In this document: piece by piece, positions 17,357-29,513 of the stretch | Numbering within the stretch: the stretch's first letter is position 1 | How the letters are laid out: every line of letters begins with the position of its first letter | NCBI GenBank assembly: GCA_937951345.1 | Contig: CALFCF010000050.1 | Location: 1 to 49,993 of the forward strand | Reading direction: 5' to 3' | DNA length: 49,993 bases | Source: an uncultured Granulosicoccaceae bacterium | Lineage (GTDB): Bacteria; Pseudomonadota; Gammaproteobacteria; Granulosicoccales; Granulosicoccaceae | Notes under the pieces: generated by a model | What the model saw: the letters and a program-made list of their open reading frames with translations, nothing else | What the model was told of the DNA's origin: nothing | The model's database searches: none | Translations under genes and position numbers: made by a program

Positions 17357-19777
17357 TCAGGAAGAAGCAGCTAATTCAGCAAGCGTTCGTGAGTAATCAC
17401 CCTTTACACGCGACTTGCTCGGGTCAAAGTGCGGGAACGCTATAACAGACGCCGGTATGCGTTTTTGCAAACCGTCAAGCTGACCAACTTCCACTTGCGT
17501 GCCGATTTCGGCGTGGGTTACATCCATCCGGCAAAGTGCGATTACCTTACCCAGCACCGGTGACTTCATGGCTGATGTAATCTCGCCTACCTGTGCCTTG
17601 CCGACTCGCACACAATCACCGTTAACCGGTACCAGCCCGCCTTCCAGCTCAAGACCAACCAGCTTCTTTTGCGGTGACTCTTTGCGACGAAGTATGGCTT
17701 CTTTACCGATATAGTCATCGGTCTTGGATGCCGGCACGGTGAAACCAATACCGGCTTCAAACGGATCGGTCTGGTCAGAGAATTCATAACCGGCAAATAT
17801 CAAACCGGCTTCAACGCGCACCATATCAAGCGCTGCCAACCCGAACGGCAACATACCGTGCGGCTCACCAGCTTTCCAGATTACATCGAACACTGTTTCT
17901 GCATGTTTTGGGTGACAAAATACTTCGTACCCCAATTCACCCGTGTATCCGGTGCGACTGACAACGACAGGCACACCATCGAATTCCTGAATGCGGGCAA
18001 CCGTTAAACGGAACCACCCGAGTTCGTCGACAGAGGGTTGTGCCGGGGGTGTCCAGATAACTGATGATAATATTTCGCGCGACAGAGGCCCTTGAACAGC
18101 GATGTTGCATAGCTGGTCAGTCGAATCACGTACCCATGCATGCAGATTATGTTTTTCTGCCTGCTCGCGTAACCATATGCCCGAATCATCATTACCTCCC
18201 ACCCAGCGAAAGTTGTTATCGCCGAGACGAAATACAGTGCCATCGTCGATCATACCGCCGTGCTCATAACAAATAGCTGTGTACACAACCTGTCCTACAG
18301 ACAGCTTTTTCATGTCCCGCGTCACGCACAATTGCATCAGCTCTTCAGCGTCAGGACCCGTCACCTCAAACTTTCTTAGCGGTGATAAATCCATGACAAC
18401 AGCTTTTTCACGACACGCCCAGTACTCAGCGATTGCGCCGTGGCTATGCATCTGGTTAGCCAGCCAATAGCCGTTGTATTCGGTGAAGTCACGCGTGAAA
18501 CGTGAGAATGATGAATGAAAACCGGTTTCTTTTGTTGCAGCCATATCGGAATCCGTTTTTTTTCGGAATGCCACGGAACGTTTGAAATCTTCCTTTTCGT
18601 CATACACACGAACCTGTATGTCAGTCGGATTCCAGCCATTGGCAGGATCAACGTCACAGGGACACGCCGTCGAAACACAAACCAGATCGTCGAGCGCACG
18701 CAGTAACACGTAATCCCCGGGACGTGACCACGGGTCATCCATGCCGATCGCATTTGCATCGTCAATCATGGTGTTGAAAAAGAAATTGATTGCAGGCCAA
18801 CCACCTCGCGGTCTGACATTGAAACGCCCGAGCGAGATGTTCATGTTGTCTGTGCAATTAACATGACCGGGATAACCCAGATCATCGTAGTACCTTGCAG
18901 TACAGGCAAGACCAAAGGTATCGTGCCGTCCGCAGGTGTCCTGAACAATTTCAACCAGCGGTTGCTGATTCATTGCCCAGTACTTTGCATATAAACCGGG
19001 GGTCGGGTAACCAAGCCCCATCAGTGAGCGGGTTGTTGTCGGGTCGATCGCATGTTCCAACCCTTGATCAAGACTGCTGAGCGACAGCGCCTGAAAGTCA
19101 GAACATTCCCGTCCTTTGAGATCCAGTATCTGAACGTACTGACCAGCTTTGACTTCATAAGCCTGCGCTTGCCCGGGCTGAATATTGATGTCCTGCAACG
19201 GGTCAGCCAACGGATCAGCAACACCGGCCCATTCATCCGACGTTTCCGGATGACAACGCTCGATATAGAGCGTGACCGGTGTGGTGGTGTTCTGCTCACC
19301 CGGTTGCATGGGTTCGCCCGGCGCACTGACAATAAGCAGACCATCCACGTCAGTCACAAACTCGGCTGTGTTGCCCGCGACAGAGTCCGGACCAAACAGC
19401 GAAACCGCGTTGGCAGTGGCGATATCAAAGCCACTCTTGTGAAGCGCATTGAGTACACGCTTTGCAGAGGCTTCGGTTGAGGACAGCACGGTTTGTAAAC
19501 CAACGGCTACATCAACCACCTGCCCTGCGCCACTGCGATGGAAAACGCCGGTATCGGAGCGCCCATCCGGTGTAAAGAACACCAGTTCAGCGCGCTGCTT
19601 ACCTTCATCGTCTACAACAGCGAACGTGTCACCTGCACGTAATTCAACAGCGCGCGATCCGTGTGGTGGCACCGGATAGCGCTCTGTATTCTCGGCCAGC
19701 ACCGGTATACCCGGCACCAGGACAGCCCCCATCTGCATGGGATGTCTGAACCTGTCGGGTGTGTGCGCAAGACTCAT
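17357..19777 (-). CDS. tdm: Trimethylamine-N-oxide demethylase Tdm
   Basis: Tdm converts TMAO to dimethylamine and formaldehyde in the cytoplasm. The 806 residues show the family's two-part build. An N-terminal part of about 400 residues contains a DUF1989-type metal-binding domain (GRECSDFQAL near 222-231, DTCGRHDTFGLAC near 281-292, CTDN near 308, STACPCDVDP near 369-378 with clustered Cys/His/Asp). The C-terminal half is GcvT-like (MDLSPLRKFEVTGPDAEEL, VSRTGYTGELGYE, GLAALDMVRVEAGL), as in tetrahydrofolate-dependent aminomethyltransferases, expected to capture the formaldehyde. Length matches known Tdm. It is the last gene of the cluster, 84 bp after tmm, which makes its substrate. A dimethylglycine or sarcosine dehydrogenase is excluded by the absence of an FAD domain. 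Confidence 0.9.
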   Translation of the reverse strand: MSLAHTPDRFRHPMQMGAVLVPGIPVLAENTERYPVPPHGSRAVELRAGDTFAVVDDEGKQRAELVFFTPDGRSDTGVFHRSGAGQVVDVAVGLQTVLSSTEASAKRVLNALHKSGFDIATANAVSLFGPDSVAGNTAEFVTDVDGLLIVSAPGEPMQPGEQNTTTPVTLYIERCHPETSDEWAGVADPLADPLQDINIQPGQAQAYEVKAGQYVQILDLKGRECSDFQALSLSSLDQGLEHAIDPTTTRSLMGLGYPTPGLYAKYWAMNQQPLVEIVQDTCGRHDTFGLACTARYYDDLGYPGHVNCTDNMNISLGRFNVRPRGGWPAINFFFNTMIDDANAIGMDDPWSRPGDYVLLRALDDLVCVSTACPCDVDPANGWNPTDIQVRVYDEKEDFKRSVAFRKKTDSDMAATKETGFHSSFSRFTRDFTEYNGYWLANQMHSHGAIAEYWACREKAVVMDLSPLRKFEVTGPDAEELMQLCVTRDMKKLSVGQVVYTAICYEHGGMIDDGTVFRLGDNNFRWVGGNDDSGIWLREQAEKHNLHAWVRDSTDQLCNIAVQGPLSREILSSVIWTPPAQPSVDELGWFRLTVARIQEFDGVPVVVSRTGYTGELGYEVFCHPKHAETVFDVIWKAGEPHGMLPFGLAALDMVRVEAGLIFAGYEFSDQTDPFEAGIGFTVPASKTDDYIGKEAILRRKESPQKKLVGLELEGGLVPVNGDCVRVGKAQVGEITSAMKSPVLGKVIALCRMDVTHAEIGTQVEVGQLDGLQKRIPASVIAFPHFDPSKSRVKGDYSRTLAELAASS

Positions 19778-19861: not shown

Positions 19862-21199
19862 CTAGTTTTTCAAATAGGTTTTCATCGTATCGTCCATCGC
19901 CTCAACCCACTTGGTGTGGTGCACCGGTGCGTCATTGCCTGTCATCAACGATTTATAACCATTGTCACGGAAACCCATAATGTCGTCGTGCTTGTGATGC
20001 TCCCAGGTCATGAAGGTCTTATTGACACCTTCAATATCGAAGCTAGGGTAATCCGTCTGATCGATCAGCTCCTGAGTGTAATCCCCCTGGAACCAGATCA
20101 TATCCTCGTCCGTTTCCAGTTTGCCTTCACGCTCTTCCCACTTGGTGCTACGCGCTTCCATTTCGGCTTTCGATGGCAGCGAAATTTTGCCCATGATGAC
20201 ATCGCGCGCCCACCAGGCCTGTGCGTCAAACATGTTGAATGTATAAAACTGATCCTGCATGCCAATGTACATAATTTTCGGATTGGCTTCGAATGCAACA
20301 CCCTGATAAAGCCCCGGTGTCCATAAACGATTGGTGGTTACCAGGCGTATCTCATCCTGTATGAACGGAAAATGATGCAGATAGCCGGTACACAGAATGA
20401 TCGCATCAATGTCTTTCGATGTGCCGTCCTTGAAATGACAGGTTTTACCTTCAACCTTTGTCAGTAGCGGTTTGGTTTCCCAGTTGTCCGGCCAGTGAAA
20501 TCCCATCGGATTGGTGCGATAACAAGCTGTTACAGATTTAGCACCGTATTTCCAGCACTGTGAACCGATATCTTCTGCTGAGTAACTTGAGCCGACAATC
20601 ATGACGTCCTGGTCTTTAAACTCCAGCGCCTCACGGAAATCGTGTGCGTGTATAACACGGCCTTCAAATTTATCTATGCCTTCGAAATAAGGAACATTCG
20701 GGGTCGAGAAGTGGCCGGTCGATACAATGACGTTATCAAAAACATCTTTGACCTGTTTGTCGTTAACCAGGTCATGTGCAATCACGGTGAAGTTCTCCTG
20801 GTCTTTGTTGTACTCAACCCAACGTACCGGATGACGGAACTTAACCCAGGGTCTGACGCCGGCTTTTTCGACACGCCCTTTTATATAGTCGGCCAGTACT
20901 TCACGGGGCGGGTAACTCGGTATCGGTTTGCCGAAGTGCTCTTCAAACGAATAATCCGCAAATTCAAGACACTCTTTCGGACCGTTTGACCAAAGGTAAC
21001 GATACATCGAACCATGTACCGGCTCGCCGAATTCATCAAGCCCTGTACGCCACGTAAAATTCCAGAGACCTCCCCAGTCATCCTGTTTTTCAAAACAGAC
21101 AACTTCAGGGATATCTTCACCGTTTTGTTTTGCACTTTGGAATGCACGCAAGGCCGCCGTCCCGCTCGGACCAGCACCGATAATTGCCACTTTGGTCAT
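19862..21199 (-). CDS. tmm: Trimethylamine monooxygenase Tmm (bacterial FMO)
   Basis: Tmm oxidises trimethylamine to TMAO with NADPH and oxygen. The 445-residue sequence has the FAD fingerprint [14 protein letters not shown] near residue 7, the segment [15 protein letters not shown] seen in bacterial FMOs, [15 protein letters not shown], the FMO identity motif FxGxxxHxxxF as [11 protein letters not shown], the NADPH-binding [21 protein letters not shown], and the C-terminal [10 protein letters not shown] block. These are typical of Tmm rather than Baeyer-Villiger enzymes. ATG at 21199 has GGAGA nine bases upstream. The TMAO demethylase follows on the same strand, strongly supporting the assignment. 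It may also oxidise dimethylamine or sulfides, as related enzymes do. Confidence 0.93.
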
Positions 21200-21307: not shown

Positions 21308-21889
21308 TCAAAAAGGCGATGGATCAGCCTGACATTGTGCCCAGTCGGGCTCGAAGCCAAGTATGATCGTATCGGGCGGCAACGCCGGATTGAACAACAT
21401 ATTATGCCAATAGGTGGCCTGCCACAACGGATTGTGCTGAGAGAGGCGCCAGACTTTACAATCAAGCTCATACTTCTGACTGAAAGCCGAAAACTCCAGT
21501 CGACACCGTCTGGCCTGCAGTAAGGTGCGGGCACCCTCTGACTCGGGTGCAAAGGTTGACGTTAATACGTCAGAAAATTCCAACGCTTTTTGATAGTAGG
21601 TTTCCGAAAAGAGCGTGACTGCCTCTTTGCGACGTTTGGCCGGATCGTGGGTGCGCTTAACCATGTGCTTCAATTCAGGCACGATGGAATGAGCTGGCAA
21701 CTTGCAAAGCACGGTTATGATATGCCCCATAGCCTCAGTGCTGTCCGGGAGATAAACCGCCGGTAACATTGCATCGCCCGGTTTTCCTTCATGCTCACGT
21801 ACCGTGATCTGGCGCGTTCTGCATTGCCAGCGCAGGAAATTTTCTTTCAGTAGCTGGTTGGCGCTATCTAGCCTTAGTACTTCACTCAT
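21308..21889 (-). CDS. Uncharacterised 193-residue protein in the methylamine operon
   Basis: I do not recognise this protein. ATG at 21889 (MSEVLRLDSANQLL) is preferred; a longer frame from TTG at 21931 would add 14 hydrophobic residues. It is soluble, with no signal peptide or membrane segment. It contains two cysteines within WQCRTRQIT and ILCKLP-like positions and another pair near RRCRLEFSAF and DCKVWRLS. Tryptophan-rich, basic C-terminal segments (NPLWQATYWHNMLFNP) end the protein. It sits between the nitrilase-family amidase and tmm on the same strand, about 108 bp upstream of tmm. Its place suggests an accessory or enzymatic role in methylated-amine metabolism. It does not look like DmmA, DmmB, DmmC or an MgdABCD subunit. 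Confidence 0.72.
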   Translation of the reverse strand: MSEVLRLDSANQLLKENFLRWQCRTRQITVREHEGKPGDAMLPAVYLPDSTEAMGHIITVLCKLPAHSIVPELKHMVKRTHDPAKRRKEAVTLFSETYYQKALEFSDVLTSTFAPESEGARTLLQARRCRLEFSAFSQKYELDCKVWRLSQHNPLWQATYWHNMLFNPALPPDTIILGFEPDWAQCQADPSPF

Positions 21890-21949
21890 TAACCGGTTCG
21901 ACCACGAAAGGATTGTTAATACAAGGAGCAAACAGGTGCTGTAACTGGA

Positions 21950-22879
21950 TCATCGCGATGCACCTACCGTTGCAGTTATTAATGGTGCATCACTGTCCTG
22001 TACATCACTTTCTTGCGCAGACCATGGCCGATCGTGCTGCAGGCTAGGTATTTTTTTACGCGCCTCCTGCACTCGCCGCCTGTCTATGTTTGCGCTAATC
22101 ACACCCGGACCGACACCGCCATCGGCAAGCACCTCACCCCACGGATCAATAATCAGCGAGTGTCCGTAGGCTTCGCCGCCACCTGACACTGCACCGGTTG
22201 CACAGGGTGCAATAACGTAGGCACCATTTTCAATCGCTCGGGCGCGACACAGTGCATGCCAATGAGCCTCACCAGTCAAACGAGTAAATGCGGCAGGAAT
22301 AGCGAGTACCTCAGCACCGGAGTGTGCGAGATCACGATAGAGTTGCGGGAATCGCAAGTCGTAGCAAATGGTGTGGCCGAGTACACCGACTGGCGTACTG
22401 ACAAGCGATAGCTGATCGCCGGGATAAACAGTGTCAGACTCACGATACACCTTGTTTTCGGCGAGTTGCACGTCAAACAAGTGAATCTTGCTGTAGTCAG
22501 ATACGATCGCACCTGTATCACTGATTACAAACCCACGGTTGCTGTAACGCCCCGATGCATCCGCGTCAACTGCTATAGACCCGATTACAATCCATCTTGC
22601 AGTGTCGGCTGCATGCTGACGTAACGCATGCAACACCGGGTGTGCGTCAACATCCGAGACCGGCGGTGCAAACCGGCTGCTCTCGGTTTTCAATCCACCG
22701 CAATATTCCGGCAGAAACAACATCGTCGTGTCAGGGTCAGTCTGCGCGGCCAGATCAAGCGCTTCTGCAATCGCAGAGTCGTAATCCGGCCACAAACGCG
22801 TTTGCAGACAGGCTACCTTGACGGAAGCTTCATGCCCTCGTGCACTGTCTTTGCTGTCTTCAGACCGACTGAGTGACAT
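21950..22879 (-). CDS. Carbon-nitrogen hydrolase (nitrilase superfamily, Nit/omega-amidase-like)
   Basis: A 309-residue amidase with the catalytic triad of the superfamily: Glu58 in FLPEYCGG, Lys131 in YSKIHLFDV and Cys172 in GHTICYDLRFPQLYR. The YSKIHLFDV and ICYDLRFP motifs place it in the Nit1/NIT2 branch (deaminated-glutathione amidase, omega-amidase) rather than true nitrilases. An N-terminal extension of about 18 polar residues precedes the domain. ATG at 22879 has GGGGAG close upstream. Within the amine cluster, plausible substrates are 2-oxoglutaramate, its N-methyl analogue, or another gamma-glutamyl amide; this is inference. It belongs to the same transcription unit as mgsABC and tmm-tdm. 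Confidence 0.86.
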   Translation of the reverse strand: MSLSRSEDSKDSARGHEASVKVACLQTRLWPDYDSAIAEALDLAAQTDPDTTMLFLPEYCGGLKTESSRFAPPVSDVDAHPVLHALRQHAADTARWIVIGSIAVDADASGRYSNRGFVISDTGAIVSDYSKIHLFDVQLAENKVYRESDTVYPGDQLSLVSTPVGVLGHTICYDLRFPQLYRDLAHSGAEVLAIPAAFTRLTGEAHWHALCRARAIENGAYVIAPCATGAVSGGGEAYGHSLIIDPWGEVLADGGVGPGVISANIDRRRVQEARKKIPSLQHDRPWSAQESDVQDSDAPLITATVGASR

Positions 22880-22963: not shown

Positions 22964-23374
22964 TCAGAACTTGGTGTAAGCCTGACGCAGCTGTACGAGC
23001 GGGTGACGATCAGACATCTGAAATTTGATTAACAGCTCACGCGCTATCATGTCGCGATCCTGCTGGTTGTCAGGTAGTTTGATCGAGTCGGGTACACGTA
23101 CCCAACCGTTGATGTTGCGATCGAATACCGCCGGGTTGCCATCCTCATAACCCATGTGCACATCTTCAAGCCAATTGAGATCGTGCCACCCCATGATCTC
23201 CAAGTACTTGGCAAGAAAAGGCGTCAACCGGTCATAATCGGGAACCAGGTTAACGTCATAGCGGTAGCCGATGTGCTGACCGATTTCTTTTTCGCGTGAT
23301 GACTCAAGACCGTCTCCCTTGATGAACTGGTCGACGTCTTTAATCTCGGAGCCTTTGTAGCTGGTACCTGCCAT
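22964..23374 (-). CDS. Uncharacterised 136-residue protein next to N-methylglutamate synthase
   Basis: I do not recognise this family. ATG at 23374 is well supported by GGAGG eight bases upstream and only 21 bp separate it from the mgsC stop. The protein is small, acidic and soluble, without cysteines, signal peptide or membrane segments. Notable stretches are VPDYDRLTPFLAKYLEIMGWHDLNWLEDVHMGYEDGN, rich in Trp, Asp and His, and a C-terminal helix ending VQLRQAYTKF. Tight spacing after the three synthase subunits suggests a fourth subunit or a helper protein of the synthase or of the nearby amidase. The His and Asp content could bind a metal, but no motif proves it. Confidence 0.78.
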   Translation of the reverse strand: MAGTSYKGSEIKDVDQFIKGDGLESSREKEIGQHIGYRYDVNLVPDYDRLTPFLAKYLEIMGWHDLNWLEDVHMGYEDGNPAVFDRNINGWVRVPDSIKLPDNQQDRDMIARELLIKFQMSDRHPLVQLRQAYTKF

Positions 23375-23395: not shown

Positions 23396-24778
23396 TTACA
23401 TGTGGTGGTAGTCGTCGATGCCGACTGTATGGTTGGTACCGGCGAGCGGTACTCCGGCAATTGCAGATGCTTCCATCGTTAATGCGCCGAGATCTTCGGG
23501 CTCAAGTGAATGCAGATTAGTCTTACCACAAGCGCGGGCAAACATCTGCGCTTCGATTGTCAGCGTGTGCAGGAAGTTATAAACGCGCTCGGCGGCTTCA
23601 TCAGGATTCAGGCGAGAGCGCAGAATCGGGTCCTGAGTTGCAACACCGACCGGGCATCGGCCTGAGTGACAGTGATAGCAGTAACCAGGTTCAACACCCA
23701 TTTCGTTCTGGAAGTCAGCTTCAGGAATATCCTTGTTGCAGTTCAGTGCCATCATGACTGAGTGACCCAAAGCAATAGCGTCAGCACCCAAAGCAATAGC
23801 CTTGGCAACGTCAGCACCGTTACGGATACCACCGGCATACACCAAGCTGATTTCGCCGCGCTTACCCAAATCATCAATCGCTTTACGCGCCTGACGAATA
23901 GCTGCCATACCGGGTACACCGGTCTCTTCAGTGGCCAGGTGCGGGCCAGCACCTGTGCCGCCTTCCATGCCATCGATGTAGATCGAGTCCGGGTCACATT
24001 TGACCGCCATGCGCACGTCGTCATAGACACGTGCAGCACCGAGCTTCAACTGAATCGGAATTTTCCAATCAGTGACTTCACGGATTTCCTGAATCTTCAG
24101 TGCCAGGTCATCCGGGCCAAGCCAGTCCGGGTGGCGTGCCGGTGAACGCTGATCGATACCAGCCGGCAGGGAACGCATTTCAGCCACCTGGTCGGTTACT
24201 TTCTGCCCCATTAAGTGACCACCAAGACCAACCTTACAACCCTGCCCGATAAAGAACTCACAACCATCGGCAAGAACCAGATGGTTAGGGTTAAAACCGT
24301 AGCGCGACTGTATGCACTGATAGAACCACTTACTTGAATAGCGACGCTCATCCGGAATCATGCCACCTTCACCGGAGCAGGTTGCAGTACCAGCCATACT
24401 CGCGCCACGCGCCAGAGCGGTTTTCGCTTCAAAACTTAATGCGCCGAAACTCATTCCAGTAACGTAGACCGGAATATCCAGTTCAAGAGGACGTTGGGCA
24501 CGTGGACCGATTACGGTCTTGGTTAAACATTTTTCACGATAGCCCTCGATAACGAAGCGCGTCAGTGTGCCGGGAAGAAACGTCAGGTCATCCCAGTGCG
24601 GAATTTTCTTGAACAACGAAAACCCGCGCATGCGGTAGCGACCAAGTTCTGACTTGATGTGAATATCGTCAATAACCGACGGCGGGAAAACAAAGCTGTT
24701 ACCAAGTCGATTGACATCGCGTTCAAGCGGCTTCTTTTCCGGTAACGGTTGCGTTTTAGGATCGTTTTTAGCAGCCAT
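23396..24778 (-). CDS. mgsC: N-methylglutamate synthase FMN-binding subunit MgsC (GlxD/GltB-like)
   Basis: A 460-residue protein matching the FMN-binding synthase domain of glutamate synthase. Landmarks are VTGMSFGALSFEAKTALARGASMAG, GEGGMIPDERRY, the IQLKLGAARV strand, IDGMEGGTGAGPHLATEETGVP (FMN phosphate region) and VYAGGIRNGADVAKAIALGADAIALG. Near the C terminus is an iron-sulfur cysteine set, CYHCHSGRCPVG. It would join methylamine to 2-oxoglutarate-derived glutamate in the N-methylglutamate pathway, working with MgsA and MgsB. An alternative is the homologous GlxBCD of unknown amine specificity. ATG at 24778, with GGAGA upstream, starts ten bases after mgsB. The amine context favours the Mgs reading. 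Confidence 0.82.
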   Translation of the reverse strand: MAAKNDPKTQPLPEKKPLERDVNRLGNSFVFPPSVIDDIHIKSELGRYRMRGFSLFKKIPHWDDLTFLPGTLTRFVIEGYREKCLTKTVIGPRAQRPLELDIPVYVTGMSFGALSFEAKTALARGASMAGTATCSGEGGMIPDERRYSSKWFYQCIQSRYGFNPNHLVLADGCEFFIGQGCKVGLGGHLMGQKVTDQVAEMRSLPAGIDQRSPARHPDWLGPDDLALKIQEIREVTDWKIPIQLKLGAARVYDDVRMAVKCDPDSIYIDGMEGGTGAGPHLATEETGVPGMAAIRQARKAIDDLGKRGEISLVYAGGIRNGADVAKAIALGADAIALGHSVMMALNCNKDIPEADFQNEMGVEPGYCYHCHSGRCPVGVATQDPILRSRLNPDEAAERVYNFLHTLTIEAQMFARACGKTNLHSLEPEDLGALTMEASAIAGVPLAGTNHTVGIDDYHHM

Positions 24779-24788
24779 TCTCTGTCTC

Positions 24789-25643
24789 CTACAAAATCAG
24801 TTTCTTCTCGGACGGTTCAAGGTTGTCGTAATTCCACAACTGCTTGCCCGCAACGACTTTAGTAAAGTGATCAACGCCCTTGTCAGGCAACATGCCGTAA
24901 CCTTCCAGCTTGCGCTTCAACCAGGATTTATCGAGATCCGTTAGCTCGGCTTCTACGGCATCGACACCAAAGCTTTTAATGTCTCCACCGACGAAGATAG
25001 TGCCGTCGTACATGGAGTCGCCCAGGTTTTTGCCCGCGTTGCCACAGAAAATCATGCGACCGCGTTGCATCATGAAGCCTGTTAACGCGCCTGTATCACC
25101 ACCAACGATGATCGTGCCGCCTTTCATGTCGATACCGGTTCGAGAACCGACAGAGCCTTTACAAACAAGGTCTCCGCCACGAATCGCTGCACCAAAGGTG
25201 GAACCAGCGTTCTTTTCAATGACCACCGTACCGGCCATCATATTTTCACCGCATGACCAGCCCACACGACCGTTGATACGCACATTAGGACCATCAATCA
25301 GACCGACGGCGAAGTAACCCATCGAGCCTTCTACTTCCAGATTCACACGACTGAGAATTCCAACCGCAAGACTATGCTTGCCACGAGGATTAAGTAATTT
25401 GATGCTGCCGACACCCTCGTCCATCAACTGCCGGATTCGTTCGTTGACTTCACGGGTGTTCATTTCATCAGTGTCGATTTCAGCTGATTTAGCCGGATCG
25501 ACAACAGGTGCCCAGGGATAGACGAAATTATCGTCTTCAGATGGCTCAAAGAACTCCTGCATCGAGCGCCCGGTCAGGGGCTCGGACATCATGCCGAGCT
25601 GCTCAGCGCGCTCTTCCTGTGTCATGTTGTTCATGCTTTCCAC
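24789..25643 (-). CDS. mgsB: N-methylglutamate synthase GXGXG subunit MgsB (GlxC-like)
   Basis: A 284-residue protein built largely of the glutamate-synthase GXGXG beta-helix: repeated glycine-rich turns such as INGRVGWSCGENMMAGTVVIE, GSTFGAAIRGGDLVCKGSVGSRTGIDMKGGTIIVGGDTGALTGF and MYDGTIFVGGDI. This domain structurally links the amidotransferase and synthase parts of the complex. The start is GTG at 25643: AGGAGG ends about seven bases upstream, whereas the next ATG at 25634 is too far from it. The gene thus overlaps the mgsA stop by 13 bases, implying coupled translation. The subunit call rests on fold and gene order; substrate depends on the complex. Confidence 0.82.
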   Translation of the reverse strand: MESMNNMTQEERAEQLGMMSEPLTGRSMQEFFEPSEDDNFVYPWAPVVDPAKSAEIDTDEMNTREVNERIRQLMDEGVGSIKLLNPRGKHSLAVGILSRVNLEVEGSMGYFAVGLIDGPNVRINGRVGWSCGENMMAGTVVIEKNAGSTFGAAIRGGDLVCKGSVGSRTGIDMKGGTIIVGGDTGALTGFMMQRGRMIFCGNAGKNLGDSMYDGTIFVGGDIKSFGVDAVEAELTDLDKSWLKRKLEGYGMLPDKGVDHFTKVVAGKQLWNYDNLEPSEKKLIL

Positions 25644-26566
25644 ACTCGCACCTCCTCGTCGTACGGATCGTAAGTATCAATTTCCTGCGGCAGAATTGCT
25701 CGTATAGCTACTTCTTCGGACGCCATCGCAATTAGATCATCGGATTCATACAAAACAAGCGGTTTTGCCGCCATTGAATCTTTCGCCATACCCAGCTGAT
25801 CCTGCGTCGCTACGAGATAGGTAAACACGCCGTCTATTTCTTCGATTGATGACGACAGACTATCTTCGAGGGATACGCCATTGGCGAGATTGTTGGCGGT
25901 GTAAACCGCTAGCAATTCGCTATCACAATTCGACATGAACCGGTGACCACGACGCTCCATCTCACGACGCATCAACCAGTAGTTGGTAATCTGGCCGTTG
26001 TGTACCACTGCCACATCGTTGTAGGGGAACGCCCAGTACGGATGCGCTGAACGGATATCAACGTCAGACTCTGTAGCCATACGGGTATGACCGATACCGT
26101 GCGTACCGGTGAAGTCAGTTAGACCATACTGTTCAGAGACCACGGTTGCATCACCCAGATCCTTAATCAGCTCGAGCGCATTTCCGAGTGACAGGATTTC
26201 AGTGCCTTCAACATCTTCAACGTAACGAGCCAGCGCTTCTGTATCACCGTCATGTGAAATAACATAACGTCGCGCGTAGGGCGTAACTGTTTCGCGGTTA
26301 TTGATCTTTGCATCGTGCTCACCGAGACGTTTTTCAACTTCGGCAACACGCGCTTCGATTTTCTCACCCATGTCATAACCGGCGTTCATGTCTTCGGCTT
26401 CCGCGACCTTGAATCGCATGACATAGTCACCGGCGTTGGGCTCGCCATAGATAGCGAATCCAGTTGAGTCCGGCCCCCGATGTTTCAGCGCCTGCAACAT
26501 CGAGGTCACTTCCGACCCGACGTTGGAGCTTTTGCCTTTATGTATAAGGCCAGCTATTCCACACAT
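25631..26566 (-). CDS. mgsA: N-methylglutamate synthase amidotransferase-like subunit MgsA (GlxB-like)
   Basis: The 311 residues are a class II glutamine amidotransferase domain with the N-terminal nucleophile Cys2 (MCGIAGLIHKG). Further landmarks are HRGPDSTGFAI, the glutamine-binding GHTRMATESDVDIRSAHPY, the HNGQITNYWLMRREM loop and a SNCDSELLAVY segment. An inserted helical region of about 75 residues near 60-140 is seen in GlxB-type proteins. In N-methylglutamate synthase this subunit is thought to channel the amine rather than only ammonia. It starts at ATG 26566, 98 bp downstream of the glutamine-synthetase-like ligase, and overlaps mgsB. Confidence 0.83.
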   Translation of the reverse strand: MCGIAGLIHKGKSSNVGSEVTSMLQALKHRGPDSTGFAIYGEPNAGDYVMRFKVAEAEDMNAGYDMGEKIEARVAEVEKRLGEHDAKINNRETVTPYARRYVISHDGDTEALARYVEDVEGTEILSLGNALELIKDLGDATVVSEQYGLTDFTGTHGIGHTRMATESDVDIRSAHPYWAFPYNDVAVVHNGQITNYWLMRREMERRGHRFMSNCDSELLAVYTANNLANGVSLEDSLSSSIEEIDGVFTYLVATQDQLGMAKDSMAAKPLVLYESDDLIAMASEEVAIRAILPQEIDTYDPYDEEVRVWKA

Positions 26567-26664: not shown

Positions 26665-28146
26665 CTAAGGCAGGCAATCCATGTAGGTTTCCTGGTCCCA
26701 GTCGCTGACGGTGTGCATGAAGCGCTCCCACTCGTCCGTTTTGTATTCGTGATACAGGCGGTACATTTCTCCTGGCATTGCGCTTTGTATTACCTTGTCT
26801 TTCTTCAATGCTTCAAGCGAATCACCCAGACTCATAGGCAGTTTTTTAACCTTCTTGCCTGACTCCATCGCTTCGTAAATGTTGCGTTCTTCCGGTTTAC
26901 CGGGATCAAGCTTATTCTTGAGCCCGTCATCACAGGCTTTCAGAATACCGGCACCCATCAGGTAGGGATTGACCATCGAATCAACCGAGCGGTACTCAAA
27001 ACGCCCGGGAGCAGAAATACGCAAACCGGTGGTTCGGTTCTGGAAACCCCAATCAGCAAAGATGGGTGCCCAGAAACCTGTATCCCACAAACGTCGGTAA
27101 GAGTTCACCGTTGAAGAACCAATCGCCGTCAACGCGGACAGGTGGCTGACAATACCGCCAATCGCGTGGAGGCCGACTTTTCCCGGTAACTGTTTGTCTT
27201 TGGTATCAGGCATGAAGTAGTTTGTCCCGCCTGACCGGTACTGATAATTTTCTTTTGCACCCGGCAGTTTCTTCGGGTCGTTGCCGGTGGGATGAACCTT
27301 GTCGCGACCACCGGTCCAGAGAGAAATGTTGTGGTGACACCCGGATGCCGACACACCCATAAACGGCTTAGTCATAAAACACGCGATCAAATTGAATTCA
27401 CGCGCCACTTGCGCACATATCTGCCGGTAAGTGGTCAGGCGATCGGCGTTTCGCAAAACATCGTCGTAGGTCCAATTGAGCTCTAACTGTCCTGGTGCGT
27501 CTTCGTGGTCACCCTGAATCATGTCGAGCCCCATGAATCGGCAGTATTCAAGAACCTTCATGTATACCGGTCGCAAACTTTCGAACTGATCGATGTGATA
27601 GCAGTAAGGGTTCGAGTAGCCGCCGTTTGGCTTACCTTCTTCGTCCTTTTTCAGCCACATCATTTCCGGCTCGGTGCCACAACGCAAGTGCATGCCCTTG
27701 TGATCTTTTTGGAATTGCTCGTGAATTCGGCGCAAATTACCACGGCAATCAGACGTCAGGAATGCACCCGGCTCTTCCTTCTCCTCGCGGTTGCGAAACA
27801 GCGTGCAGTAAAAACGGCCAACGCGCTTGTCCCAGGGCAACTGACAAAACGTATCCGGTTCCGGGATACCCACCAACTCAGCGGCTTCCGGCCCATAACC
27901 GAGGTAATCGCCATGGCGGTTGGTAAACAGGTTGACAGTCGCGCCGTACACCAGCTGGAAACCTTTGGTTGCAACCGACTCCCAGTGATCAGCAGGGATA
28001 CCTTTACCGCAAATGCGCCCGGTCACTGACACAAACTGCAAATAAAGGTATTCAATTCCCAGCTCGTTGATACGCTTCCTGACTTCCTTTATCTGCGCGT
28101 CTCTTCCCGCTGCACTGACGAATTTTTCAATATCGGTTTTTGCCAC
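26665..28146 (-). CDS. Glutamine-synthetase-family ligase, candidate gamma-glutamylmethylamide synthetase
   Basis: A 493-residue ATP-dependent ligase with glutamine synthetase architecture: beta-grasp N domain, then catalytic motifs LRCGTEPEMMWL, GLDMIQGDHEDAPGQLELNW, CFMTKPFMGVSASGCHHNISLW (substrate and metal site), NSYRRLWDTGFWAPIFADWGFQNRTTGLRIS (ATP region) and RFEYRSVDSMVNPYLM. It begins at GTG 28146 with a perfect AGGAGG ribosome site. It is longer than the roughly 435-440 residues of characterised GmaS, so orthology is not certain, but the gene order ligase-mgsABC matches known gmaS-mgsABC loci. It would form gamma-glutamylmethylamide from glutamate and methylamine. An ordinary ammonia-assimilating role is the alternative. 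Confidence 0.82.
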   Translation of the reverse strand: MAKTDIEKFVSAAGRDAQIKEVRKRINELGIEYLYLQFVSVTGRICGKGIPADHWESVATKGFQLVYGATVNLFTNRHGDYLGYGPEAAELVGIPEPDTFCQLPWDKRVGRFYCTLFRNREEKEEPGAFLTSDCRGNLRRIHEQFQKDHKGMHLRCGTEPEMMWLKKDEEGKPNGGYSNPYCYHIDQFESLRPVYMKVLEYCRFMGLDMIQGDHEDAPGQLELNWTYDDVLRNADRLTTYRQICAQVAREFNLIACFMTKPFMGVSASGCHHNISLWTGGRDKVHPTGNDPKKLPGAKENYQYRSGGTNYFMPDTKDKQLPGKVGLHAIGGIVSHLSALTAIGSSTVNSYRRLWDTGFWAPIFADWGFQNRTTGLRISAPGRFEYRSVDSMVNPYLMGAGILKACDDGLKNKLDPGKPEERNIYEAMESGKKVKKLPMSLGDSLEALKKDKVIQSAMPGEMYRLYHEYKTDEWERFMHTVSDWDQETYMDCLP

Positions 28147-28847: not shown

Positions 28848-29513
28848 ATGAACAAAAACCATGTGTTTTTAATGCTGCGCAAAGGTATCACCGATGGTAG
28901 TTATGAAAACGGTGAGCGTTTACCCCCGGAACGTAACCTGGCGCAACAGTTTGGCGTGGCTCGTGGCACCCTCAGAGAAGGCTTGCGAGAGCTGGAAAAC
29001 GCCGGTTTGGTAGAACGCCGACAAGGCAGTGGCACGTACGTTACCTACGGTGTTGAGGATTCACAGCCATCCATACTCGGTGAAGTCAGTCCACTTGAAC
29101 TGATGGATTCGCGCCTGGCAATAGAACCACACGTCTGTCGCAAAGCTGTTTTGCATGCAACGGATGCCGACTTTCGACGGCTGGATCGAATGTTGCGCAA
29201 TATGGAACGGAACACCCGGGATATTGTTGGTTTCAGCGAGCTTGACGCCGAATTCCATCAGGCACTCGCTGAACTGTCAGGTAACCGGATGATGCACTGG
29301 TTAATCAGCAGTATGTCTGGTGCACGCGCACATTCTCAATGGTCACGCGTGCGCTCCATCGTACTGACACCGACGGCGATAACGATGTACAACCAGCATC
29401 ATCGCGCCATTGTCGATGCAATACGCTCACGTGAACCGGAAGCTGCAGCCGCACGAATGAAGAAACACATTGTCGCTGCCCGCGATTCATTGCAACGGGT
29501 TGCTGAGGTTTAA
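28848..29513 (+). CDS. GntR-family regulator, FadR/FCD subfamily
   Basis: The 221 residues start with a GntR winged HTH (YENGERLPPERNLAQQFGVARGTLREGLRELENAGLVERRQGSGTYV), then an FCD effector domain. Metal- or ligand-binding residues are seen in ELMDSRLAIEPHVCRKAV, FSELDAEFHQALAELSGN and YNQHHRAIVDAIRSREPEAAAARMKKHI. Members respond to organic acids or amino-acid-like ligands. ATG at 28848. It is transcribed divergently from the nine-gene amine operon and is its most likely regulator, with candidate operators in the space between. The ligand could be a pathway intermediate such as N-methylglutamate or gamma-glutamylmethylamide; this is inference. Confidence 0.9.
   Translation: MNKNHVFLMLRKGITDGSYENGERLPPERNLAQQFGVARGTLREGLRELENAGLVERRQGSGTYVTYGVEDSQPSILGEVSPLELMDSRLAIEPHVCRKAVLHATDADFRRLDRMLRNMERNTRDIVGFSELDAEFHQALAELSGNRMMHWLISSMSGARAHSQWSRVRSIVLTPTAITMYNQHHRAIVDAIRSREPEAAAARMKKHIVAARDSLQRVAEV

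Follow-up and report, generated by a model that had tools for sequence, protein, structure and literature searches.

What could a small protein without a recognized family contribute to an enzyme that looks like N-methylglutamate (NMG) synthase, directly behind whose genes it is encoded? The question is raised by u136, a gene at positions 22964..23374 on the minus strand of a 49,993-nucleotide stretch of DNA from an uncultured Granulosicoccaceae bacterium; the whole stretch is called the window here. The original prediction, which gave no strand, had described a 136-residue ORF that lies 21 bp after mgsC, has a strong ribosome site and belongs to no family, and on these points it proved right. 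The ORF has 136 codons, the plus-strand frame at the same positions is closed by four stops, the gap to the MgsC-like stop codon (which ends at 23396) is 21 bases, and GGAGG stands eight bases 5' of the ATG (the reverse strand reads ...TGGAGGACAATACAATG). In the family searches, Pfam-A and NCBIfam gave no match at E ≤ 1 and PHROGs only matches at E ≥ 0.15, and none of the three yielded a family for u136 at E ≤ 0.001.

In the order of transcription on the minus strand, u136 is preceded by four genes, which are marked with a prime throughout: GS' (26665..28146), a 493-aa glutamine-synthetase-like ligase (PF00120); MgsA' (25631..26566), a class-II glutamine amidotransferase-like protein with an N-terminal MCGI (PF13522/PF13537); MgsB' (24789..25643), a GXGXG or FwdC-like subunit (PF01493); and MgsC' (23396..24778), an FMN glutamate-synthase-like subunit with a GltS-like CPVG motif (PF01645). 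Further 3' on this strand lie a carbon-nitrogen hydrolase of the nitrilase family (21950..22879; PF00795), u207 (21308..21931; 207 aa, without a Pfam or NCBIfam family), the trimethylamine monooxygenase Tmm (19862..21199; NF058570, 819 bits with a cut-off of 675), and the trimethylamine N-oxide (TMAO) demethylase Tdm (17357..19777; NF053776, 1222 bits with a cut-off of 1100). A divergent regulator gene, which we take to be FadR/GntR-like, is located beside GS' on the plus strand (28848..29513).

u136 is a genuine gene under strong purifying selection. Its product is 84% identical to the copy of Ruegeria arenilitoris, with a pS of 0.92 (synonymous sites saturated) and a pN of 0.12, and these values, together with relatives in many genomes, rule out a chance ORF or an artefact. 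Judged by pN, which is ~0.17 for MgsA', MgsB', and GS' and 0.33 for the carbon-nitrogen hydrolase, u136 changes about as slowly as the synthase subunits do. Its consensus is free of cysteine, and no cofactor or catalytic motif was recognized in it.

The single-chain structure model of u136 is of middling confidence overall (pLDDT 78, pTM 0.66), with a pLDDT of 77 to 96 per ten-residue block past residue 40. It predicts a small mixed fold with a helix at residues 52 to 61, three strands within residues 75 to 93, and helices at 104 to 120 and 125 to 134. Compared with the PDB, this model (pLDDT 78) reached a best E of 0.47 in Foldseek and a single row with a Z of 2.2 in VIA-align, and a profile search against PDB sequences gave only chance-like matches (best E 0.0057, TLAP2 of Toxoplasma). 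A DRNINGWV turn is suggestive of an EF-hand or a WW domain, but conservation fails at the final ligand position of an EF-hand, and neither domain is assigned. In some u136 proteins, the unchanged core is preceded by a Lys/Ala-rich, histone-H1-like tail of ~15 to 80 residues at the N terminus (approximate positions: L028 8697-8910, L030 8629-8870, L033 6150-6375, L174 11602-11649, and L188 7944-8003); such tails occur in gamma- as well as alphaproteobacterial lineages.

Linkage of u136 to a paralogue of NMG synthase

The original prediction took the neighbour of u136 for NMG synthase itself. As canonical references, we used a plasmid of Ruegeria conchae and pAMI6 of Paracoccus aminophilus; on the former, the amidotransferase, the GXGXG protein, the FMN subunit, and the type III ligase are encoded beside dmmDABC, folD, and fhs. 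The same three-subunit architecture (amidotransferase, GXGXG, and FMN glutamate-synthase-like subunit) is present in the primed set according to Pfam. Identity of the window proteins to the R. conchae set is 35% for A, 40% for B, 52% for C, and 30% for the ligase, and GS' remains below the curated cut-off for type III ligases (TIGR03105, 302.2 versus 469.6 bits). In a maximum-likelihood tree of 67 MgsC proteins (all 39 of the canonical type, 27 of 98 primed proteins that were usable, and one other), the canonical and the primed groups lie on opposite sides of a branch with 100/98 support, which places the window protein outside the clade formed by MgsC proteins whose clusters are linked to dmm or mgd. 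The host has a canonical mgsABC-gmaS as well, on contig C62 (MgsC 80% and GmaS 60% identical to Ruegeria). From these comparisons, the window genes are a paralogous GS'-Mgs'ABC system in a separate clade and not a canonical NMG synthase, and such genes are easily misannotated as gmaS-mgsABC.

The CPVG cysteine motif is present in 99/99 MgsC' but only 3/39 canonical MgsC, and these three rule it out as an absolute clade marker. The canonical MgsC proteins that keep CPVG branch early, and the motif is absent from the other 36 (e.g., L148 11968-13296 versus L175 856-2136); an iron-sulfur site has apparently been lost within the canonical family. A third mgsABC-like cluster, without u136, lies between a canonical gmaS and a primed block in one genome (G692; L183 3017-5814) and is 44, 38, and 40% identical to A, B, and C of the window.

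How tightly is u136 bound to this paralogue? A contig scan revealed at least 574 relatives in genome contigs. We fetched the loci of the best 80, which belong to marine Rhodobacteraceae, Roseobacteraceae, SAR116, Rhizobiales, Kiloniellaceae, Granulosicoccaceae, and others. Among 57 related genomes, u136 was found in 17, all within the host family (17 of 36 there, host included), and two genomes of the host's genus gave no match; in an even, phylum-wide sample of 398 genomes, only the host and one other genome (G063) matched. Every matching genome had one copy, in these two sets as well as in a family set of 120 and a class set of 190 genomes. In 105 of 105 loci (a number that includes the window and in which at least two contigs are counted double), the gene immediately 3' of MgsC', on the same strand, is u136. 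Homologues that occur mostly away from mgs genes would have spoken against a functional link, and no such pattern emerged; because the fetched 80 had the highest similarity, distant homologues away from the block could be missed. Where the flank sufficed, GS' was present in 87/87, MgsA' in 92/92, and MgsB' in 94/94 loci. Counted over 139 distinct MgsC proteins, u136 follows 99/99 primed and 0/39 canonical ones, nor does it follow the one remaining paralogue (0/1). None of 72,556 plasmid records holds u136, and 239 of these records hold an MgsC relative.

By its genomic linkage, u136 is thus an obligate and previously undescribed partner of an Mgs-type synthase. This is the part of the predicted role as a fourth synthase subunit that stood. 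The other part, a subunit of the canonical NMG synthase, is rejected: u136 is missing from all 39 canonical loci, and mgsABC of Methylobacterium extorquens alone yields NMG in Pseudomonas putida, according to the text available for PMC6237917. Therefore, u136 is no overlooked component of the known enzyme.

Other neighbours are less constant. Relatives of the regulator gene were found in 78/84 loci with enough flank, u207 in 87/93 loci, Tdm in 48/74, and a DAO-type FAD oxidoreductase, of which none was found within the window, in 37/84; the nitrilase-family hydrolase, for which a gamma-glutamyl amide could be a substrate, follows u136 in 62/98. In many loci, the block is embedded between the divergent regulator and tmm/tmoXVW/tdm. 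One locus has the order DAO-GS'-A'-B'-C'-u136 and adjoins a canonical gmaS (G643). u207 is also encoded beside canonical gmaS (e.g., L174 10526-11116, L024, and L032), and its occurrence near both may point to a general role in methylated-amine metabolism. An IMG/VR contig with 31% GC (L188 7587-8354) encodes the last 83 residues of an MgsC' and a whole u136 beside phage-like genes; it is probably a chimera or picked-up host DNA, and it was left out of the linkage and exclusion counts.

The linkage alone would also fit a separate enzyme or an assembly factor of the same pathway instead of a subunit, and we regard this as possible. No fusion of u136 with MgsC' was seen, no known fold was clearly matched, and the lysine-rich tails on some u136 proteins suggest contacts of another kind. 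On the other hand, the unbroken position directly after MgsC', the slow, subunit-like evolution, and the lack of a recognized cofactor or catalytic motif argue for an accessory subunit of MgsA'B'C', which is the reading that we prefer. The question of a subunit or a separate factor is, in any case, compatible with the function in dimethylamine (DMA) metabolism that is considered below.

Mutual exclusion with DmmC

In the published pathway of trimethylamine (TMA) degradation, dmmDABC is needed between Tdm and GmaS, and many marine bacteria are described as lacking it (available text of PMC5520151). The distribution of u136 bears directly on this gap. Among 120 genomes of the family of R. arenilitoris, 15 have DmmC and 15 have u136, with an overlap of 0. 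A strong Tdm (53% identity or more and E < 1e-270, which excludes the weaker G560 and G569) was found in 30 of the 120, i.e., in all 15 genomes with u136, in 14 of the 15 with DmmC, and in one with neither (G578). The class set of 190 genomes contains 17 with u136 and two with DmmC, again with an overlap of 0; here, a strong Tdm (E < 1e-270 and 51% or more, which excludes the weaker G635) is present in 14 genomes, of which 12 have u136, one has DmmC, and one has neither. Pooled, with the shared genome G476 counted once, 43 alphaproteobacterial genomes have Tdm: 26 with u136, 15 with DmmC, none with both, and two with neither. The exclusion has a P of ~1e-9 if genomes are taken as independent, i.e., with phylogeny ignored. 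Furthermore, DmmC was found in 0/49 genomes behind fetched loci (from 50 of the 80 loci; some of these genomes are also part of the family and class sets) and in 0/17 genomes of the host family with u136, in a search in which two positive controls matched, and homologues of DmmC or DmmA were found near the block in 0/74 loci with enough flank. Hence, the block occupies the genomic place where dmm would be.

The two Tdm genomes with neither gene are G578 (L187), which has a canonical mgs-gmaS beside tmm/tdm, and G785 (L184), a small genome of 1.5 Mb in which Tdm lies on a contig of 3 kb; incompleteness or a third DMA route may account for these cases. We take Rhodobacteraceae bacterium SB2 to be the CHAB-I-5 isolate; its locus (L109) holds a complete block beside tmoXVW and tdm, in a genome without DmmC. 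For CHAB-I-5, genes for the oxidation of TMA, TMAO, and monomethylamine and no dmm genes are described in the available text of PMC5520151.

Shared descent can inflate the mutual exclusion. Most DmmC genomes have a different type of Tdm, with 53 to 57% identity to that of the window versus 61 to 69%, and therefore, two operon lineages partly explain the pattern. This leads to the possibility that the block is a second set of monomethylamine isozymes with another affinity or regulation, u136 being its accessory subunit, and that the exclusion merely reflects two inherited types of TMAO operon. The subunit architecture shared with gmaS-mgsABC, the conserved amine pocket of GS', and the differing Tdm types are consistent with this, as are the 10 of 48 u136 genomes that gave no match to canonical GmaS (58% identity or more), which are perhaps incomplete. 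Yet, canonical GmaS is present in the other 38 (and in 15 of 17 DmmC genomes), which would make the set redundant; DMA would be left unprocessed in 26 of the 43 Tdm genomes; the divergence is deep (30 to 52% identity); and two genomes, G508 and G771, have DmmC and no u136 next to a window-like Tdm (67 to 68%). We consider a monomethylamine isozyme set unlikely. The 38 genomes with both ligases also rule out a replacement of canonical gmaS by GS' as a general rule, i.e., the block does not substitute for gmaS.

More unlikely still is a role in the turnover of some other primary or secondary amine, with the tie to TMAO genes reflecting the niche: Tdm is absent in 5/31 u136 genomes, and GS-type ligases take many amines, such as putrescine, ethanolamine, and isopropylamine, but the block is so often embedded next to tmm/tmoXVW/tdm, and the exclusion is specifically with the DMA enzyme. 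Taken together, the distribution of the block points to DMA rather than to monomethylamine.

A possible route for dimethylamine

In sum, we propose, with a probability of roughly 55%, that u136 is the fifth obligate component, most likely an accessory subunit of MgsA'B'C', of an undescribed GS'-Mgs'ABC-u136 system that serves the DMA step of TMA and TMAO catabolism where DMA monooxygenase is absent. We infer the substrate, the chemistry, and the physical role as a subunit from genomics.

Consistent with a glutamylating first step, GS' keeps K30, E122, Y147, Q175, D177, E179, E186, and N188 of GmaS and has I in place of Y174 (five GS' and four GmaS proteins aligned). Roles of these residues in the amine pocket or in catalysis are known from RhGmaS, which also takes DMA, albeit with a Km of 16.07 × 10^3; the table that lists it has a value of 58.1 for ethylamine (roles and Km values from the available text of PMC7948447). 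Hence, the glutamylation chemistry is possible, and the poor Km makes a dedicated DMA enzyme plausible.

In our model, Tdm would convert TMAO to DMA, and GS' would join DMA to glutamate at the expense of ATP, giving gamma-glutamyl-dimethylamide. MgsA' would release DMA from this amide, and MgsB'C', with FMN and cysteines of the iron-sulfur type, would condense it with 2-oxoglutarate and reduce the product to N,N-dimethylglutamate. An FAD amine oxidase (a DAO gene is often found upstream) or Mgd may then remove a methyl group from this product to give NMG, which would enter the known pathway. NMG synthase is usually written as a redox-neutral exchange; the cysteines kept in MgsC' suggest instead a reaction that is reductive overall and draws on an external electron donor. 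u136 may shape the assembly of MgsA'B'C', its amine specificity, or the docking of the electron donor. That GS'-MgsA'B'C'-u136 is the missing DMA route of dmm-negative marine bacteria, oxygen-independent, passing through gamma-glutamyl-dimethylamide and N,N-dimethylglutamate, and with u136 turning an Mgs-type synthase toward a secondary amine, is a more tentative proposal, which we put at somewhat below even odds. In the portions of the open-licence literature that were searchable, we found no description and no biochemistry of the block, nor any mention that bacteria form gamma-glutamyl-dimethylamide or N,N-dimethylglutamate as intermediates.

Many abundant marine bacteria are described as having tmm, tdm, and gmaS and no dmmDABC, a DMA bottleneck that has been linked to DMA in marine aerosol (Lidbury et al., PMC5520151, available text). 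Furthermore, growth on TMAO is described for a SAR11 strain that lacks dmm, and an unknown isoenzyme was proposed there as the explanation (PMC8918994, available text). The block would help to resolve this bottleneck in marine bacteria of the tmm-, tdm-, and gmaS-containing, dmm-negative type. If it degrades DMA, many bacteria that are supposedly blocked are not, DMA turnover is underestimated from metagenomes, and u136 offers a compact marker gene for this route.

Comparison with known systems

The closest known system is the canonical gmaS-mgsABC of Methylobacterium, Ruegeria, and Paracoccus. It comprises the same kinds of enzymes in the same methylated-amine setting, but it forms a separate clade at 30 to 52% identity, and u136 is found only in the primed block. 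The gene order differs as well: GS' (493 aa) is encoded first, whereas gmaS (~440 aa) follows mgsC on the plasmids of R. conchae and Paracoccus.

Glutamate synthase (GltS/GOGAT) resembles the primed proteins in that MgsC' matches PF01645 and keeps CPVG and MgsA' has an N-terminal cysteine of the catalytic type. In contrast to glutamate synthase, the domains of the primed system are split over three genes, with u136 in addition, and u136 resembles no solved part of glutamate synthase by sequence.

The DMA monooxygenase DmmDABC takes the same genomic slot as the block, being found with tdm in genomes that lack the latter. The proteins, however, are unrelated to those of the block; DmmC is a DUF3445 protein.
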